Assembly: GCF_009184635.1 (NCBI RefSeq)
Contig: NZ_WELI01000003.1
Location: 682,001 to 746,000 of the forward strand
Direction: 5' to 3'
From: Rudanella paleaurantiibacter
GTDB lineage: Bacteria > Bacteroidota > Bacteroidia > Cytophagales > Spirosomataceae
Length of the DNA stretch: 64,000 nucleotides
Of this stretch, positions 16,034 through 43,389 are shown piece by piece. The position numbers were made by a program, and so were the translations under genes. Each line of letters begins with the position of its first letter. Positions within the stretch are counted from its first letter, which is position 1. The notes beneath the pieces are model-generated. The model saw only the letters and a program-made list of their open reading frames with translations. It was not told where the DNA came from and did not search any database.

Positions 16034-16969
16034 ATGCCTGAAAATATTCATGACAAATTTTTCAAGGAAAACTTTTCACGGCAGGATATAGCGGCTGACT
16101 TTGTGCGGGAAGTATTTCCAGAACCACTACGGGAGAAACTTAATCTGCCCACCCTCACACTACGTAACACATCGTACACGGACCCTACGCTGGAAGAATA
16201 CTTTGCCGACACTGTCTACGACTGCGTCTACGAAAGTAGTACTCCGGTTCAGATTGCGATTCTGTTTGAGCACAAAAGCCAAAAAGAGAAATATCCGCAT
16301 TTCCAATTGCTGAGATATCTACTGAATAGTTGGGAGGAAGCCAAAAAGCAAAACAAACCGCCCGGCCTCTTAATCCCGGTTATAATCTATCATGGAAAGG
16401 CACGGTGGGAGTACGAGCCTCTTTCACACTACTTTGGAGCGGTCGACGCGGCATTACAAGAGTTTCTGCCGATGTTCCGGTATCTGATTTTCGATATTTC
16501 ACATTATGATGATGAACAGCTTCTTGGCTTTCGGAATAGATTTCTGGCAACATCGTTATTTTTGATGAAGCATCGGGAAAATGAAGCCCGATTACTTGAA
16601 TATCGCCACCGATTGTTTGTATGGTTGGATGAACTGGTTCAGACCGAATCCGGAAAGAACTATTTAATTACCACAGTCATTTATTTATCAAAGAACCTGG
16701 ACATCCGGCCTAAAGCATTTTTTCAGTCTTTATTCGCAACCGACCAAGTAAACAGAACAGCTATGTCAACGTATGACCAAATCATTGAGGAGGGTATCGA
16801 GAAAGGCATTGAGAAAGGCATCGAAAAAGGGAAAGAAGATGCTTTTGTTTCTCTGCTGACGGTTGCGTACAAACAGGGGCTGGATATTGATAAACTGGCG
16901 GCTCAATATAATGACCTACCCCGGCAACGAATCAACGAATTGGTAGAGGAGGTGAAAACGCAAAGCTGA
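16034..16969 (+). CDS. Rpn family PD-(D/E)XK nuclease / putative transposase
   Basis: A 311-residue protein of the Rpn (RpnA-E, YhgA-like) family: recombination-promoting DNases of the PD-(D/E)XK fold. The N-terminus HDKFFKENFSRQDIAADFVREVFP and the core VQIAILFEHKSQKEKYPHFQLLRYL (nuclease residues in the FEHKS region) are typical, as is LLIPVIIYHGKARWEY. The C-terminus has a reiterated four-residue unit (IEEG, then IEKG three times, then KEDA), as in many Rpn proteins. Codon use is more AT-rich than in the neighbours, which suggests acquisition by transfer. Confidence 0.88.
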   Translation: MPENIHDKFFKENFSRQDIAADFVREVFPEPLREKLNLPTLTLRNTSYTDPTLEEYFADTVYDCVYESSTPVQIAILFEHKSQKEKYPHFQLLRYLLNSWEEAKKQNKPPGLLIPVIIYHGKARWEYEPLSHYFGAVDAALQEFLPMFRYLIFDISHYDDEQLLGFRNRFLATSLFLMKHRENEARLLEYRHRLFVWLDELVQTESGKNYLITTVIYLSKNLDIRPKAFFQSLFATDQVNRTAMSTYDQIIEEGIEKGIEKGIEKGKEDAFVSLLTVAYKQGLDIDKLAAQYNDLPRQRINELVEEVKTQS

Positions 16970-32046: not shown

Positions 32047-32721
32047 TTACAACAGGATAGACGGATCGACCAGGTTGTTTTTCATGGCAAACAGCACCAG
32101 ACCAGCCGTGTTACGGGCGCCGGTTTTCTCGAGCAAACTGGCCCGGTGTCCGTCGATGGTGCGGATGCTGACGCACAACGCTTCGGCAATTTCGGGGGCC
32201 GTTTGTTGCCGACAAATAAGGTTTAGCACCTCAATTTCGCGGGGGGTCAGGGTAGCGGGCAGATCATCGGTCAGCAGCCGCCGGGGCTTGCGGGTGTTGA
32301 GCCGGTTGCGCATGGCCGACAAAAACGCTTCGTTGAAATAAACGTCTTTTTCAACCACCGTCCGAATAGCCCGTTCTACCTCGGCCGGCTCCACATTTTT
32401 GAACAGGTACGCACTCACGCCCAAATCCATCAGGTGCGTTACAAACCGGTCTTCGCTGTACACCGACAGAATAATGACCCGAATATCAGGGTACTGTTTG
32501 TGCAGTAGTTTGGTGGTTTCAACGCCGTTCAATTCCGGCATCGACAGGTCGAGCAGCACCACCTCGGGCTGGGGGTCGGCCGTAGCGAGGCCGTCGAGCA
32601 AAGCCCGGCCGTTGTCGGCTTCGAGCACGACCCGAATGTCCTGAAAATCATTGATAATCGAAACCATGCCCTTTCTGAAGAGCACCTGATCGTCGGCAAT
32701 GGCTACGTGAATGGGTGTCAT
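32047..32721 (-). CDS. NarL/FixJ-type response regulator
   Basis: A 224-residue cytoplasmic two-component regulator. The receiver domain (1-120) has D10/D11, phosphoacceptor D58 (VVLLDLSMPEL), S86 and K108. The C-terminal LuxR helix-turn-helix (about 155-215) begins LTPREIEVLNLICRQQTAPEIAEAL. It overlaps the histidine kinase gene by 4 bp, so it is translationally coupled and surely its partner. Targets are unknown; the bestrophin gene just downstream is a natural guess. Confidence 0.95.
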   Translation of the reverse strand: MTPIHVAIADDQVLFRKGMVSIINDFQDIRVVLEADNGRALLDGLATADPQPEVVLLDLSMPELNGVETTKLLHKQYPDIRVIILSVYSEDRFVTHLMDLGVSAYLFKNVEPAEVERAIRTVVEKDVYFNEAFLSAMRNRLNTRKPRRLLTDDLPATLTPREIEVLNLICRQQTAPEIAEALCVSIRTIDGHRASLLEKTGARNTAGLVLFAMKNNLVDPSILL

Positions 32722-33533
32722 AACGTGGGTGAGAGTGCAATTGGCTGAGGAATACGAACCGTTACGTGTAGCCCCGCGCCCGGCTTAGTCACAAACGTAG
32801 CGGTCCCGTTGAGCATCTGGGCGCGGGTTTCGATGTTTTTCAGACCGAGGCTTTTCTTCTGGTACGCCGTTGAAAAGTCAAACCCCTTACCGTTGTCGCT
32901 GTACTCGAGCAGGAGCCCATCGGCCTGTTGGCTTATTTGCAGGTTCAGTTCGGTAGCCTCGGCGTATTTCACGGCATTATTGAGCAACTCCTGCACCAGC
33001 CGGTACAAAATAAGGCTGGTACGCGTTTCTACAGCTATCTCTTCGTCTACCGTCAGCCGAATATCCACATCTACCAGATTCATGGCCGTTTCGCAAAGCC
33101 CCTCCAGGGCGTAGGCCAGCCCCAGTTCATTGAGCCCCTGCGGTAACAGATCGTTCGAGATGCGCCGGACGTTATCGATGGTATTATCAATTACCCCTTT
33201 CACTTTGCTGCTCAATTCGGCAGGGGGTGTACCGGGCGCGGCCGTTTGGCCAATCTGCCCCACCAGCAACCGCATGGCCGACAGAGCCGCGCCGACTTCG
33301 TCGTGCAGGTCACGGGCTACTCGCTTGCGTTCGTCTTCCACCGCATCGAGGGTTTGGTACACTACCGCCTGCTGGTAGTTCAGCTCCATCTGTTTCACAA
33401 GCAGTTCCTGCTCCACAATGCGCTTTTGGTACAGCAGAATGAATCCTACCACGCCCACGACCAACAGAATCATAGCCGCCGACCCACCCACTAATATCAA
33501 TATGAGATCAACCGACTCTTGGGACTGAGCCAT
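32718..33533 (-). CDS. NarX-type sensor histidine kinase with one membrane helix
   Basis: A 271-residue HisKA_3 kinase. A single N-terminal helix (about 9-35) anchors it, and there is no periplasmic sensor domain. A coiled coil then leads to phosphoacceptor H77 in ARDLHDEVGAAL. The ATPase domain shows an N box near ELLNNAVKYAEA and a G box at YSDNGKGFDF. Lacking its own sensor, it probably takes its signal from the 7TM protein, whose gene overlaps its 5' end by 37 bp, and passes phosphate to the overlapping response regulator. Confidence 0.93.
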   Translation of the reverse strand: MAQSQESVDLILILVGGSAAMILLVVGVVGFILLYQKRIVEQELLVKQMELNYQQAVVYQTLDAVEDERKRVARDLHDEVGAALSAMRLLVGQIGQTAAPGTPPAELSSKVKGVIDNTIDNVRRISNDLLPQGLNELGLAYALEGLCETAMNLVDVDIRLTVDEEIAVETRTSLILYRLVQELLNNAVKYAEATELNLQISQQADGLLLEYSDNGKGFDFSTAYQKKSLGLKNIETRAQMLNGTATFVTKPGAGLHVTVRIPQPIALSPTL

Positions 33534-37438: not shown

Positions 37439-37765
37439 TCAACCGCCAACTTTCCCAAATGGCTTAAACCCGTTCTCGCGGGTTACAATTACCTCTTTTA
37501 CCTCAATATAGGGTTTGCTGAACAGTTCGGTATCGCGCAGAGCCTCCATAAACACGTAATACTGATTGAGGTCGTTGCAGGAAATCATCATCACATCGGA
37601 GAACCGGGCATGAAACGCTTCGGCATCGAATAGGCGCACCTGTACCTCTTGCTCAAACCGGGCAAAAAGGGGCGTGGTTTTGCGGTCAAAGAAGGCTTCG
37701 CGCTGACTCCGTGAAAGCGACAGCCAGGCTGGTAATGCCTGGTACAAAACAAAGATGGTGTACAT
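37439..37765 (-). CDS. Darcynin family protein
   Basis: A 108-residue cytoplasmic protein of the darcynin family, whose function is unknown. Recognisable features are the opening YTIFVLYQALPAWLSLSR, then FDAEAFHARFSDVMMISC, NDLNQYYVFMEALRDTELF and KPYIEVKEVIV. The fold is likely a ferredoxin-like (dabb-type) dimer. The start at 37765 gives the family N-terminus; the extension to 37828 is Pro/Phe-rich and unlikely. A 6-bp hairpin (37404-37409 with 37429-37434) separates it from the convergent lipoprotein gene. Confidence 0.75.
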   Translation of the reverse strand: MYTIFVLYQALPAWLSLSRSQREAFFDRKTTPLFARFEQEVQVRLFDAEAFHARFSDVMMISCNDLNQYYVFMEALRDTELFSKPYIEVKEVIVTRENGFKPFGKVGG

Positions 37766-37880
37766 GGAGAAGGGAAGAAAGGAGAATGGAGGAAAGGGAT
37801 AAGGATTAAATCGAAGCCATAACTCCAATCAGCCCGTTTCTTGTTCCAGCCCCTTCCTCCCATCCTGCTTTCCTCCTTTC

Positions 37881-39755
37881 TTATTGATACCCTCTTGCCT
37901 GAAGCTGAAACAGTTCGGCGTAGCGGCCACCCTGCGCCAGCAACTCAGCATGAGAGCCCAGCTCGATCAGACGGCCCCCTTCGAGCACCAGAATACGGTC
38001 GGCCATCCGGACGGTGCTGAACCGGTGCGAGATAATAACCGAGCTTTTGCCCTCCGTAAGGCCCGCAAACCGCTGAAACACCTCGTATTCGGCGCGGGCG
38101 TCGAGGGCTGCTGTTGGTTCGTCGAGAATAATCAGCTGGGCGTCGCGCATGTAGGCCCGTGCCAGGGCCACTTTCTGCCACTCGCCCCCCGACAGCTCAA
38201 CCCCCTTGTTGAACGAGCGCCCCAGTTGCTGATCGTACCCGGCGGGGAGCTTGGCAATCACCGAATCGGCCAGGCTCCGTTGGGCCGACGATTCGATCCG
38301 GGGCTGATTGGTGCGTTCGTCGATATCGCCCACGGCAATGTTGACCCCTGCCGACATTTTGAACCGGACATAATCCTGAAAAATCACCCCAACGTTGCGC
38401 CGGAGATCAGCCAGATCGTACTCACGCAGGTCGCGGCCGTCGAGCAGGATACGCCCTTCCGAGGGGTCGTACAAACGAGCGAGCAACTTGACCAGCGTCG
38501 TCTTCCCGGCGCCATTTTCGCCCACCAGGGCTAGCTTTTCGCCCGGCCGCAGCGTAAACGACAGGTTCCGAATTGCCCAGCGTTCGGGGGCATTGGCGTA
38601 CTGAAAACCCACGTTTTCGAACACAAACCCCTCCCGAATAGGTTGCGGCACCCGGAGTGGCTCGCCAACAGCGGGGTCGTTGGGTGAATGGATTTTGGGC
38701 TGAATGGCGAAATAGTCGAACAAATCCTGCAAGTAGAGAGCCTCTTGCGTTAAACCACTGAACTGCAACAGAATACTTTCCAGCGAACCCCGCACCTGCC
38801 GAAACGCCCCGGCCAGAAACGTCAGATCACCGAGCGAAATCTGCCCGGCTACGGCCCGCCCGATAATCCAGACATAAGCCGCGTAATACCCCGCCGTGCC
38901 TAAGGCCGTCAGTACCGTACCCCAGCCCGCCCGGCTAATGGCCAACGCACGATTTTTGACGTAGTATGTCCACGACAATGTTCTGAACCGGTCGATGAGG
39001 AAGCCCGAAAGACCAAAAATCTTTACCTCCTTGGCCGTATCGTCGGCAGCACCCACGTAGCGCAGGTAGTCCAGTTCGCGTCGTTCGGGGGTCCAGTTCC
39101 GCGAGAGCGAGTAACTCCGCTGATTGAAGTAGTTGTCGGCCGCAAAGGCGGGCAATACCGCCAGCACCAGCAACCCGATGAGCCAGGGGTTGTACACCAC
39201 CAGACCAGCCGCCAGAAACACCACCGAAATGATTTCCTGCACCTGCCCAAATACCTGCGATAGTAATACCGTGCGGCCGGTCGTTTGCCGACGGGCGCGT
39301 TCGAGTTTATCGTAAAAGGCGGCATCTTCAAACTGCTCCAGATCGAGCGAGGCCGCGTGTTCCATGAGCCGGATAGACGTTTGGTTGGCAAACAGATCGC
39401 CCAGCAGGCTGTCGAGCAGCGACACCAGTCGCCCCAGGGCTGTAGCCAGCACCGCCAGGCCAAACTCGGCCCCCACCAGTTGCCAGAGGTAGGTGGTATC
39501 AGGATTGGCACCCTGCGCCATGAGCCGCACCACCTCGTCGATAATCAGTTTACCCACATAGAGGGCGGCCGCCGGGATAGCCGCCCGTACCAATCGCCCG
39601 AAGGCGTTGCCCAAAAATAGACCGGGCGAGGTTTGCCACACCAGCCGAAAAAAGGCGGGTAGGTTTTTGAGTGCACTAAACCGATCTCGCCAACTGAGTG
39701 TCTCGGCGGCCGGTTGTGCTGGATTAGAAGAATGAGACGCTTTACTTTTAGCCAT
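37881..39755 (-). CDS. ABC exporter, fused membrane and ATPase domains
   Basis: A 624-residue half-transporter of the type IV (MsbA/B-family) fold that works as a homodimer. The membrane domain (about 35-340, six helices) is followed by the ATPase domain with Walker A GENGAGKTT (near 412), signature LSGGEWQKVALARAYMRDA, Walker B LIILDEPTAALD and the H-loop switch ISHRF. The N-terminus is a hydrophilic tail (SKASHSSNPAQPAAE). It may export lipid, peptide or drug; nothing in the neighbourhood points to a substrate. Confidence 0.93.
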   Translation of the reverse strand: MAKSKASHSSNPAQPAAETLSWRDRFSALKNLPAFFRLVWQTSPGLFLGNAFGRLVRAAIPAAALYVGKLIIDEVVRLMAQGANPDTTYLWQLVGAEFGLAVLATALGRLVSLLDSLLGDLFANQTSIRLMEHAASLDLEQFEDAAFYDKLERARRQTTGRTVLLSQVFGQVQEIISVVFLAAGLVVYNPWLIGLLVLAVLPAFAADNYFNQRSYSLSRNWTPERRELDYLRYVGAADDTAKEVKIFGLSGFLIDRFRTLSWTYYVKNRALAISRAGWGTVLTALGTAGYYAAYVWIIGRAVAGQISLGDLTFLAGAFRQVRGSLESILLQFSGLTQEALYLQDLFDYFAIQPKIHSPNDPAVGEPLRVPQPIREGFVFENVGFQYANAPERWAIRNLSFTLRPGEKLALVGENGAGKTTLVKLLARLYDPSEGRILLDGRDLREYDLADLRRNVGVIFQDYVRFKMSAGVNIAVGDIDERTNQPRIESSAQRSLADSVIAKLPAGYDQQLGRSFNKGVELSGGEWQKVALARAYMRDAQLIILDEPTAALDARAEYEVFQRFAGLTEGKSSVIISHRFSTVRMADRILVLEGGRLIELGSHAELLAQGGRYAELFQLQARGYQ

Positions 39756-39974: not shown

Positions 39975-41915
39975 ATGTTTACTCCTCTTCAATCGGTCAC
40001 TCGTACCCCAACCCAGCCGGCCAATCAGATGATTTTGTACGGGCTGATGGTCTGCGTACCGTTGCGCAGCGCCGTTACGGGCGACATTACCGACGGGGTG
40101 CTGGTTGACCTCAACGAGCGGGCGCTGAGCGATTTTGGTCAACCCCGGCAACAGCTCATCGGGCAGCCAATCACCGTCTTGCTGGGCCTTGAGCCATCGG
40201 GCCGGTTACTGCATCAACTAGCGCAGGTTGCCGAGAGTGGCGCATCGAGCCGGTTTGAGGCCCAGTTCCGATTTCCGGGTAGTGAAACGCCCGAGGATTA
40301 CGACGTGCAACTGACGCCATTTGAAGGTCGGGTTCTGATAAACTATTACCCCCTCGCCCGCGATCAGCCCGACCAGACCCAGCCGCAGCCAGACCACCTC
40401 TCCGCGCTTGTGCAGAACGCCCTGACGGGCCTGACCTGCCTGGAGCCTGTTCACGATGCTTCCGGTGTTATTATCGACTTCCGGTACCTGCTTGTCAACC
40501 AGCACGCGATTCAACTCGCCCGCAAATCGGCCGAGCAACTCTTGGGCCACCGGATGCTCGAACTCTACCCGACCATTCAGGGGAGTCTGCTGTTCCGAAA
40601 GTGGCTCGAAGCCTACCAAACTGGTCAGCCAACGCAGTTTCTGAACTCGTTTACGCTTCCCAACGGCCAAACCCGCTGGTACGAAAGCCGCACTGTCCGC
40701 TACAGCGATGTACTTATCGAGTCGTTTAACGATGTAACGGAACAGAAACAGCGCGAGCTACAACAACACGATCAGGCGGCCCTGCTCGAACGAGTCCTCA
40801 ATACCACCCAAAGTGCTATTTTGGTCCTCCGGCCCGAACTGAGCGAAACCGGCGACCTGCTCGATTTGCAGGTGACGCTCGCTAACCAGACAGCCCGTCA
40901 CTGGTTCAACCTGTCGGCCCTCGACCGGATGACCCAGACGTTCATGCCGATTGGCATGGCGGTTTCCGGCAACGCCTTTTTCGACGTCTGTCAGCGGGTG
41001 CTCCAGTCAGGGATGCCCGAACGAACCATTTTTTCGTTCGGAAACCGGCAGTACGATATGGCCATTGCCCCCCTGAACTACTCGCTGACTATCTCGGCCT
41101 TCGACGTTACAGACCTTCAAACCCAGCGAGAGCAACTCGAAATCAGCAATTTCGACCTCCGGCGCTCGGGCGAGAACCTCCGCCAATTTGCGCAGGTAGC
41201 CTCCGGTGACCTCATCACTCCGCTTCGTAAGATTCTGTCGTTCACCGAATTGATGCAACAACAGTATTCCGACAAACTTCCGCCCGACGGGATTGATGTG
41301 CTCCGGCGCGTACAAACGGCCGCCCGGCGTATGGATATGTTTCTGCACGATCTGCTGGCTTACTCACGCTTGAGTGCGCAAACCCAGCACATGGAGTCGT
41401 TCGAGCTTTCGGCTTTAATCAATGAGTTGGCAACCGAAGACCTGTGGCCGCTCATTCATCAGAGTGGAGCACGGCTTACGATTGGTCAACTGCCGGTGCT
41501 CACGGCCAACCGCGCGCAGATTCGCCAGTTACTGCTCAACCTGCTCACCAACGCGCTCACGTTTCGGCGGGCGGGCATCACGCCGGAGATTGAGATCAGG
41601 GCACGCCTTATTCCGTACACTGAGCTGCCCAACGTAGCCATACAAACAACCGGGCAGGCCGAGCCAACGGGTACGGCTCTGTACCATGAAATAAGCGTGA
41701 GCGACAACGGGACCGGCTTTGAGGGCACCAGCGACGAGCAGGTATTTCAGGCTTTTTTGCGGCTCAAATCACGGAGTCGGCACGATGGGTCGGGGATTGG
41801 GCTCGCTATATGCCGTCGCATCGTCGAAAATCACCGTGGATATATTTCCGCCGTTGGCGAGCCGGGTGTAGGGGCTACGTTTCGTATCTTTCTGCCAGCA
41901 ATTGAAACGAGTTAG
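39975..41915 (+). CDS. PAS-domain histidine-kinase-like protein lacking the phosphoacceptor histidine
   Basis: A 646-residue soluble sensor protein with three PAS-like regions (about 25-130, 140-265, 270-385), then a dimerisation helix pair and an ATPase domain. The expected phosphoacceptor motif ASHDL reads ASGDL, with Gly at residue 411 (GGT, 41205-41207), so autophosphorylation at the usual site is impossible. The ATPase boxes look usable: N box LLLNLLTNALTF (with Thr for the usual Lys), G1 SDNGTGFE, and G2 GSGIGLAI. It is therefore a probable pseudokinase or phosphatase/regulator rather than a conventional kinase. No response regulator gene is adjacent. Confidence 0.88.
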   Translation: MFTPLQSVTRTPTQPANQMILYGLMVCVPLRSAVTGDITDGVLVDLNERALSDFGQPRQQLIGQPITVLLGLEPSGRLLHQLAQVAESGASSRFEAQFRFPGSETPEDYDVQLTPFEGRVLINYYPLARDQPDQTQPQPDHLSALVQNALTGLTCLEPVHDASGVIIDFRYLLVNQHAIQLARKSAEQLLGHRMLELYPTIQGSLLFRKWLEAYQTGQPTQFLNSFTLPNGQTRWYESRTVRYSDVLIESFNDVTEQKQRELQQHDQAALLERVLNTTQSAILVLRPELSETGDLLDLQVTLANQTARHWFNLSALDRMTQTFMPIGMAVSGNAFFDVCQRVLQSGMPERTIFSFGNRQYDMAIAPLNYSLTISAFDVTDLQTQREQLEISNFDLRRSGENLRQFAQVASGDLITPLRKILSFTELMQQQYSDKLPPDGIDVLRRVQTAARRMDMFLHDLLAYSRLSAQTQHMESFELSALINELATEDLWPLIHQSGARLTIGQLPVLTANRAQIRQLLLNLLTNALTFRRAGITPEIEIRARLIPYTELPNVAIQTTGQAEPTGTALYHEISVSDNGTGFEGTSDEQVFQAFLRLKSRSRHDGSGIGLAICRRIVENHRGYISAVGEPGVGATFRIFLPAIETS

Positions 41916-41960: not shown

Positions 41961-42010
41961 AAACTGTGAACTGCAAACCGTAGACTGTAAACCACAAACT
42001 GTAAACTGTA
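41961..42010. repeat. Reiterated AAACTG/AAACCG words before the thioredoxin gene
   Basis: The 12- to 14-nt words AAACTGTGAACTG, AAACCGTAGACTG, TAAACCACAAACTG and TAAACTGTAA follow one another directly, ending 12 nt before the ATG at 42022. Confidence 0.6.
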
Positions 42011-42021
42011 ATCTCAGTCCC

Positions 42022-43389
42022 ATGCGTCGATTTTTACTTCTGAGTGTGTTTGTTTTGAGCACTGGGCTAACCGCAATGGCCGATGGTGTTCGGTTTTTTC
42101 AGGGCTCCTGGGGGCAACTTTTGAGTGAAGCCAAGCGCCAGAACAAGCCCATTTTTGTGGATGTGTACACCACCTGGTGCGGCCCCTGCAAACTCATGAC
42201 GTCGCAGGCATTCCCAAACCCACGGGTGGCCTCCCGCATGAACGAACACTTTGTTAACTACAAACTCGACGCTGAAAAAGGCGACGGACAAAGCATTGCC
42301 AAACGGTACGGGGTACAGGGCTACCCGACGTCGCTGTTTCTGACGCCCGACGGCAAACTGCTGCACCGGGCCATCGGCTACAATGGGATCGACAAGTTTC
42401 TGGCCGAAGCCCAAAAAGCTATTTCCGACGCCAAAGAGGCCCGTACAATGGCCATCTGGAATGCCGAATACGACCGGGGCGAGCGCTCGGCTAAATTCCT
42501 GCGGGGTATGCTGCTCAAACAAACCGAATACGACCGGGCCACCGCCGACGTACTCGACGATTACGTAAAAATCCTGCCCAAAGCCGATACCCTTGCGGCC
42601 GATGAAATCAAGTTTTTGAGCGATGTCCTGTCGACCACGTACACCAAGGCTTATTTGCTGCTCGCCAGGCAAACCACTTCGGTAGCGGGGCAAGCGGCCA
42701 AACAACCCCTCTTACCCGGTCTGACCAAAGCCCTGAGCCGGGCCGAACAGTTTGATTTTCAGGATGCCGTGGCAAGTCAGGACGAAGTACAGCTCGAACA
42801 ACTCATCAAGCATATCAACGCCCGCCAACAGGCTCAAAACCCAGCTTTGGCCAAAACACCCGTTGAGCAAAAAGCCATTTTGGAGCGCGAGGCCGACGAC
42901 GTTCGGCTTCGATTTTACCGGGCATCGCGGCTACCGGCTCACTACATTGCTCTGGCCAAAAAAATTGCCGAAACCCGGCTCATGACCCGCACCGCAACGG
43001 AGTTGGCCCGCGCCGATTCGCTTGCGTACCTCCAATCGCAACGGATAGATTCGGGGGTAGCGACCCAATCAACCGACTCAACCGCAACAACGACCCCGCA
43101 AGCCGACCGGTCGGCGGTATCGCGTTTGACGGCGCTGCAACTATGCGACCTCGCCCGCAACTTAACCGAGCAATCGGCTGATAAAAAAGACTTAGCGCAG
43201 GCCTTGCGTTGGTCTGAGCGAGCGGTGCAACTGCACAACCACCCCAGTACGGTGCTCGTGCACGCCCGGCTCCTCAACCGGGCCGGCCGGCGAACCGAGG
43301 CTCAGCGACAACTCCGCGACGCCATTTCACGGCAGCAACCCGACCATGATTCGGTACCGATGCTACAGGCCGAACTGAACAAGTTATAA
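42022..43389 (+). CDS. Secreted thioredoxin-fold protein with helical repeats
   Basis: A 455-residue protein with a signal peptide (MRRFLLLSVFVLSTGLTAMA). Residues 25-150 are a thioredoxin-like domain with active site WCGPC (C53, C56) and a cis-proline loop at QGYPTSLF, resembling DUF255/thioredoxin_7 periplasmic reductases. The remaining 300 residues are alpha-helical, with Ala/Leu/Gln-rich TPR-like repeats (for example QALRWSERAVQLHNHPSTVLVHARLL). It probably acts as a periplasmic disulfide reductase or chaperone. The ATG at 42022 directly precedes the signal sequence; upstream frames lie in the word repeat. Confidence 0.85.
   Translation: MRRFLLLSVFVLSTGLTAMADGVRFFQGSWGQLLSEAKRQNKPIFVDVYTTWCGPCKLMTSQAFPNPRVASRMNEHFVNYKLDAEKGDGQSIAKRYGVQGYPTSLFLTPDGKLLHRAIGYNGIDKFLAEAQKAISDAKEARTMAIWNAEYDRGERSAKFLRGMLLKQTEYDRATADVLDDYVKILPKADTLAADEIKFLSDVLSTTYTKAYLLLARQTTSVAGQAAKQPLLPGLTKALSRAEQFDFQDAVASQDEVQLEQLIKHINARQQAQNPALAKTPVEQKAILEREADDVRLRFYRASRLPAHYIALAKKIAETRLMTRTATELARADSLAYLQSQRIDSGVATQSTDSTATTTPQADRSAVSRLTALQLCDLARNLTEQSADKKDLAQALRWSERAVQLHNHPSTVLVHARLLNRAGRRTEAQRQLRDAISRQQPDHDSVPMLQAELNKL

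Follow-up and report, generated by a model that had tools for sequence, protein, structure and literature searches.

What does a protein do that has the core of a histidine kinase and lacks its phosphoacceptor histidine? The question is raised by an open reading frame of 646 amino acids (39975 to 41915, plus strand) in the window, by which we mean the whole 64-kb stretch of DNA analysed here. Judged from its sequence, the protein is probably a working pseudokinase, of a kind that is rare but already known.

The gene and its missing histidine

The architecture of the protein is PAS-PAS-(PAS)-HisKA-HATPase_c. By Pfam, the first PAS region (PAS_9, residues 37-101, 40083 to 40277) and the second (PAS_4, residues 168-258, 40476 to 40748) are above the cut-off. 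A third PAS-like region (PAS_8, residues 270-322, 40782 to 40940) falls just below it, with 21.2 against 21.8 bits, so that of the three PAS-like regions named in the original prediction two pass the cut-off. The HisKA (DHp) domain (residues 402-468, 41178 to 41378; 29.8 bits, cut-off 26.9) is followed by a HATPase_c (CA) domain, also above cut-off (residues 513-642, 41511 to 41900), in which the alignment shows conserved residues in the N, G1, F, G2 and G3 boxes. This order of domains is that of the HisKA family of histidine kinases. An AlphaFold model of residues 380-646, made with one distant relative, has a mean pLDDT of 55.8, with ten-residue blocks reaching 84 and the best of them in the first DHp helix; for the ATP site the model holds no reliable information.

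The motif stretch of the reading frame is LRQFAQVASGDLITPLRKILSF, and residue 411, which sits within VASGDLITPLRKI, is Gly (codon GGT, 41205 to 41207). In a phmmer alignment it stands opposite the phosphoacceptor His of 8f71 (VASHDIKEPLR), the closest solved kinase. The same column holds His in all 73 other aligned relatives, which were picked by similarity and not by His, nine of them from the same genome. The orthologue in the genome G001 reads VASSDLITPLRKI, with Ser at this position (codon AGC). We also read 51 kinase stretches from the own genome, which are not its full kinase list, and found His in 50, the focal protein being the sole exception. A His-box pattern matched 47 of the first 50 stretches, and the His of L116 (HEIMNSI), L132 (HEFQTPI) and L143 (HDLKSPL, the 51st stretch) was recognised by eye. 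The original prediction had placed Gly at the phosphoacceptor position at this very codon, and the reading frame, the 8f71 alignment and the relatives all confirm it. The span given there for the motif (41196 to 41215) lies within it and covers its first part only, the motif extending to 41234.

No His occurs anywhere in helix 1 of the focal protein (residues 386-432). Because the phosphoacceptor is absent and helix 1 has no other His, we infer that the usual autokinase activity is excluded by established chemistry. The H-box His that marks an active enzyme of the family is thus Gly here and Ser in the orthologue. Both proteins have lost a residue of the core step with the rest maintained, which is the mark of a pseudo-histidine kinase. 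Pseudokinase status, as first proposed, gains support from the His-free helix 1, from the Ser of the orthologue and from the purifying selection described below. Going by these alignments, the loss of His is derived on any tree examined, since all other rows carry it.

Conserved core, constraint and descent

Compared with the 73 relatives, the focal protein and its orthologue (hereafter the pair) keep Asp412, Pro416, Leu417, Arg418 (the Arg at H+7), both N-box Asn, Asp577, Gly579, Gly581, Phe591, Phe594, Arg596, Gly605, Gly607, Gly609 and Gly633. The residues that define the ATP site are as in 73/73 relatives, namely the N-box Asn (N526), the G1 Asp-x-Gly-x-Gly (D577, G579, G581) and the G2 Gly-x-Gly-x-Gly (G605, G607, G609). 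Changes common to both orthologues, in columns where one letter exceeds 85% in the 73 relatives, include (the list is not exhaustive) N399G, H411G/S, Q414I, E415T, L456F and I457L on the DHp side. On the CA side they include F520L, Q521L, K529T, I580T, I590V, Q595L and H598K, and Thr at 529 is also present in 3/73 His-type relatives. ATP binding by the focal protein is probable only, because near-invariant neighbours of the site have changed (K529T, I580T, F520L, Q521L, Q595L and H598K). The earlier description of the G boxes as intact holds for the seven site residues and G633, and fails for these neighbours.

Position H+4 (residue 415, codon ACT, 41217 to 41219) is Thr in both His-less proteins and Glu in 72/73 relatives; the one relative with Thr is an outlying SHDLRTPL kinase. 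Thr or Asn at this position is the sequence signature of HisKA transmitter phosphatases, a role described in the accessible part of PMC3510030, and both orthologues carry it.

Compared between the own genome (G000) and G001 by the Nei-Gojobori method, the whole gene has a dN/dS of 0.120 and its transmitter one of 0.061, with 0.062 in the DHp part and 0.061 in the CA part. Residues 141-262 and 263-385 have values of 0.070 and 0.060, and residues 1-140, the fastest part of the gene, within which the first PAS region falls, reach 0.363. In nine His-type orthologue pairs of these two genomes the transmitter reaches 0.030-0.068; eight of the pairs lie at 0.030-0.060, and the 0.068 belongs to one whose dS is as low as 0.073. 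This puts the focal transmitter at the high end of the range. The transmitter value indicates purifying selection and bears out the view that the protein is not obviously decaying. Since the core, ATP site included, is under constraint, the comparison says that it should still be doing something.

The own genome has 66 matches to the focal protein. The only orthologue found is the protein of G001, which matches the full 646 residues at 88% identity, and the His-less protein is present in two of the four genus genomes examined, own included (G000 and G001). Another genus member, G003, is 71% complete and absence there means little. Among 222 genomes of the family, matches at E 1e-110 or better occur in three, G000, G001 and G114 (36% identity). 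A sample of 390 genomes from the order, in each of which three candidates were scored, yielded no further orthologue, and a protein search of genome_contigs returned six distant matches only (26-31% identity in the best segment) and no named orthologue.

The gene lies between an ABC transporter gene (37881 to 39755, minus strand) and a gene for a thioredoxin-fold protein (42022 to 43389, plus strand), which serve as synteny markers. G001 shares the gene order from an MFS gene to HflX (with ABC transporter, kinase, thioredoxin-fold protein, NIF3 and MATE between them). G002 has the ABC gene and the block from the thioredoxin-fold gene to HflX on two contigs, and the focal kinase has no match in either stretch. 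The His-less gene has been gained or lost within the genus, because its flanking genes are present in G002 and the kinase is missing. The G002 genes adjoining the ABC and thioredoxin-fold genes (L098 2130-8733 and L099 3-3859), named by reading, are presumably DUF1501-type and planctomycete-type cytochrome-like genes.

Other features of the region were recorded. Between the kinase-like and thioredoxin-fold genes lies a degenerate 7-base tandem array (41961 to 42011, consensus AAACTGT, 7.3 copies, 68% matches), and in G001 the gap between these genes is longer. A darcynin-domain protein (PF17074, function unknown; 37439 to 37828, minus strand) adjoins the ABC transporter and is conserved in G001. 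Elsewhere in the window, the in-frame repeat GIEKGIEKGIEKGK (16783 to 16830) is found near the C-terminus of the reading frame 16034-16969, which we take to resemble Rpn/transposase-type nucleases.

A first tree had a poor outgroup and left the pair unplaced, and later trees were given a wider one. In a quick tree built without the three diagnostic columns, the pair falls within the SHDLQEPL group as the neighbour of a 16-row clade (SH-aLRT 93). Among the members of this clade are kinases of comparable length from G114, G181, G202, G203 and G195 (open frames of 654-679 aa) and shorter ones from G002, a genome of the same genus. A careful tree of 65 rows agrees on the placement, with 92/60 and 93/95 at the two placing forks. 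Holding the other rows of the group together was not rejected against the quick tree (p-AU 0.7, the held tree being 13.15 log units higher) or against the careful tree (p-AU 0.352, likelihood 9.26 lower). The change from Glu to Thr at H+4 is probably derived in the pair, as the two trees favour, with this held-together alternative not rejected.

Candidate functions

The reading that we favour, tentatively, is a protein dead as an autokinase whose target would still be a response regulator, with phosphatase activity or binding of the phosphorylated regulator as its most likely mode of action. The gene product would be a relative of those PAS-sensor kinases whose HisKA box is SHDLQEPLRK, without autokinase activity and yet maintained. 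Its PAS input may still set the conformation of the core, which would be dimeric and bind ATP, and this core may dock a response regulator common to the His-type paralogues. It would then remove or capture the phosphate of the regulator, as a constitutive or signal-controlled transmitter phosphatase; lacking catalysis, it could serve as a sink for the phosphorylated regulator. Either way, the signal of the active paralogues would be damped.

Action on the phosphorylated regulator is favoured because Thr at H+4 is combined with Arg at H+7, and it appears to fit the Thr at least as well as allosteric regulation of a kinase does. In CrdS and other HisKA kinases, phosphatase activity is reported to need Thr or Asn at H+4, with the His enhancing and dispensable (PMC3510030; PMC12632262, as far as their accessible text goes). 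The H+7 Arg is described as necessary for regulator binding in the DrBphP phosphatase (PMC8292422, consulted in part). RetS offers a kinase-dead sensor whose phosphatase action requires the Thr of HExxT, according to the available text of PMC5992135; as it also inhibits GacS, it shows that one such sensor is able to act both as a phosphatase and on another kinase. Other evidence warns that Thr at H+4 is no proof of a phosphatase. DivL, a natural His-less kinase, is without phosphatase activity and stabilises DivK~P (available part of PMC4211667), and DrBphP, whose H+4 residue is Glu as in most of the aligned relatives, lost its phosphatase activity when this Glu was changed to Thr (PMC8292422, same portion). 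Also against the favoured reading, the derivation of the Thr in the pair is no more than probable, and ATP binding may be weakened by K529T and by changes in the lid.

The eight neighbouring genes scanned include no response regulator, which is a further point against. A strict receiver-motif pattern, run over the 64-kb window, has its sole match in a separate HisKA_3-type pair (32047 to 33533). The pattern had no match in 82 related loci taken with short flanks, a result of little weight, as the only check on the pattern is that it picks up the LuxR-type regulator of the window. This pair of a HisKA_3-type kinase and a LuxR-type response regulator, named from sequence, lies on the minus strand and is conserved in G001. 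A narrower scenario, which we regard as unlikely, is that one small lineage turned a PAS sensor kinase into a dedicated regulator phosphatase, by loss of the His and gain of Thr at H+4, and so obtained a signal-controlled off-switch for its paralogues. In this scenario the two changes would be separated by roughly one turn of helix 1, and the Thr would have arisen among kinases whose usual H+4 residue is Glu.

The main rival, possible if somewhat doubtful, is an allosteric pseudokinase in the manner of DivL or RetS, which would join a His-type paralogue in a complex or heterodimer and switch that kinase on or off, with no phosphate chemistry required. Allosteric regulation of another kinase was the choice of the original prediction. 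Precedents in the accessible parts of the literature are DivL with CckA (PMC4211667), the ChrS pseudokinase, which arose by a frameshift in the ATPase domain during laboratory evolution and for which ChrS-HrrS heterodimers were seen (PMC9491836), and the inhibition of GacS autophosphorylation by RetS (PMC5992135). His-type paralogues whose helix 1 is similar are also numerous in the genome, as heterodimerisation would require. However, no partner is indicated by position, the nearest match to the protein on the contig being about 51 kb away, and allostery alone leaves the Thr at H+4 unexplained.

A protein that still autophosphorylates elsewhere (on H458 or a Ser/Thr), or binds ATP for another purpose, is improbable. 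The kept ATP-site residues and the H458-D459 of helix 2 in both orthologues would suit it, as would a Caulobacter hybrid kinase with no aligned His for which a His close by has been suggested to take over (PMC11481889, available in part). H458, the nearest other His, was nevertheless set aside as an alternative phosphoacceptor: it is an ordinary residue, present in 8/73 His-type relatives, and therefore unlikely to be a substitute that the focal protein acquired. Helix 1 is free of His, and Gly411 cannot be phosphorylated here, so Ser411 of the orthologue would not be a shared site. Incipient decay into a pseudogene, or a loosening of constraint, would account for the fast residues 1-140 (dN/dS 0.363), for the absence of the gene at the matching place in G002 and for the disagreement between Gly and Ser at residue 411. 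We consider it very improbable, as the frame is open in both genomes, synteny is kept, and the low values of the transmitter and of residues 141-385 contradict it; moreover, a His-type pair (L005/L025) is likewise fast at the N-terminus (0.266). A sequencing or assembly error at one codon can practically be dismissed. GGT differs from CAY at two bases, and the G001 orthologue, where a His would have pointed to such an error, lacks it as well (AGC).

Comparison with known systems

Few His-less HisKA domains have been studied, to our knowledge. A survey counts 722 of 76,471 HisKA domains without the His, about 0.9%, and the accessible text treats pseudo-histidine kinases as a previously described group (PMC12632262). 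These domains at large share the lesion of the focal protein. The focal protein thus belongs to an already described group and is new as a member. No description of His loss together with the H+4 swap was found in the literature searched, accessible in part and with most subscription papers outside its coverage; this search also found nothing on EnvZ H243V or on Spirosoma kinases. The pair offers a natural test: the two orthologues differ in what replaces the His, their core is otherwise strongly constrained, and the swapped H+4 residue is the one linked by experiment to phosphatase function. If the phosphatase reading were true, the route from a kinase to a dedicated phosphatase would be short.

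Among solved proteins, the histidine kinase core 8f71 is the closest in sequence (E 2.9e-35 over the whole transmitter), and differs in having the His and Glu at H+4. Two other entries, 8sgk and 8avv (Bacteriophytochrome), are among the best solved relatives, and we take them to be DrBphP from the His at H+1. The Deinococcus bacteriophytochrome phosphatase DrBphP shares the H+7 Arg with the focal protein; unlike it, DrBphP keeps the His and both has and depends on Glu at H+4 (PMC8292422, accessible portion).

DivL of Caulobacter is alike in its PAS domains, its HisKA-HATPase core and its natural loss of the phosphoacceptor His. It differs in having Tyr at the His position, where the pair has Gly or Ser, and, by the available text, in its weak ATP binding and its work with DivK and CckA (PMC4211667); the sequence match between DivL in the PDB (4q20) and the focal protein covers the ATPase part only. 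RetS of Pseudomonas resembles the focal protein in that no autokinase activity is expected and in its Thr at H+4 (E/DxxT). In RetS, however, the H box is retained, the HATPase is degenerate and a receiver domain is present (PMC5992135, as available), whereas the focal protein has lost the His and retains its ATP-site residues.
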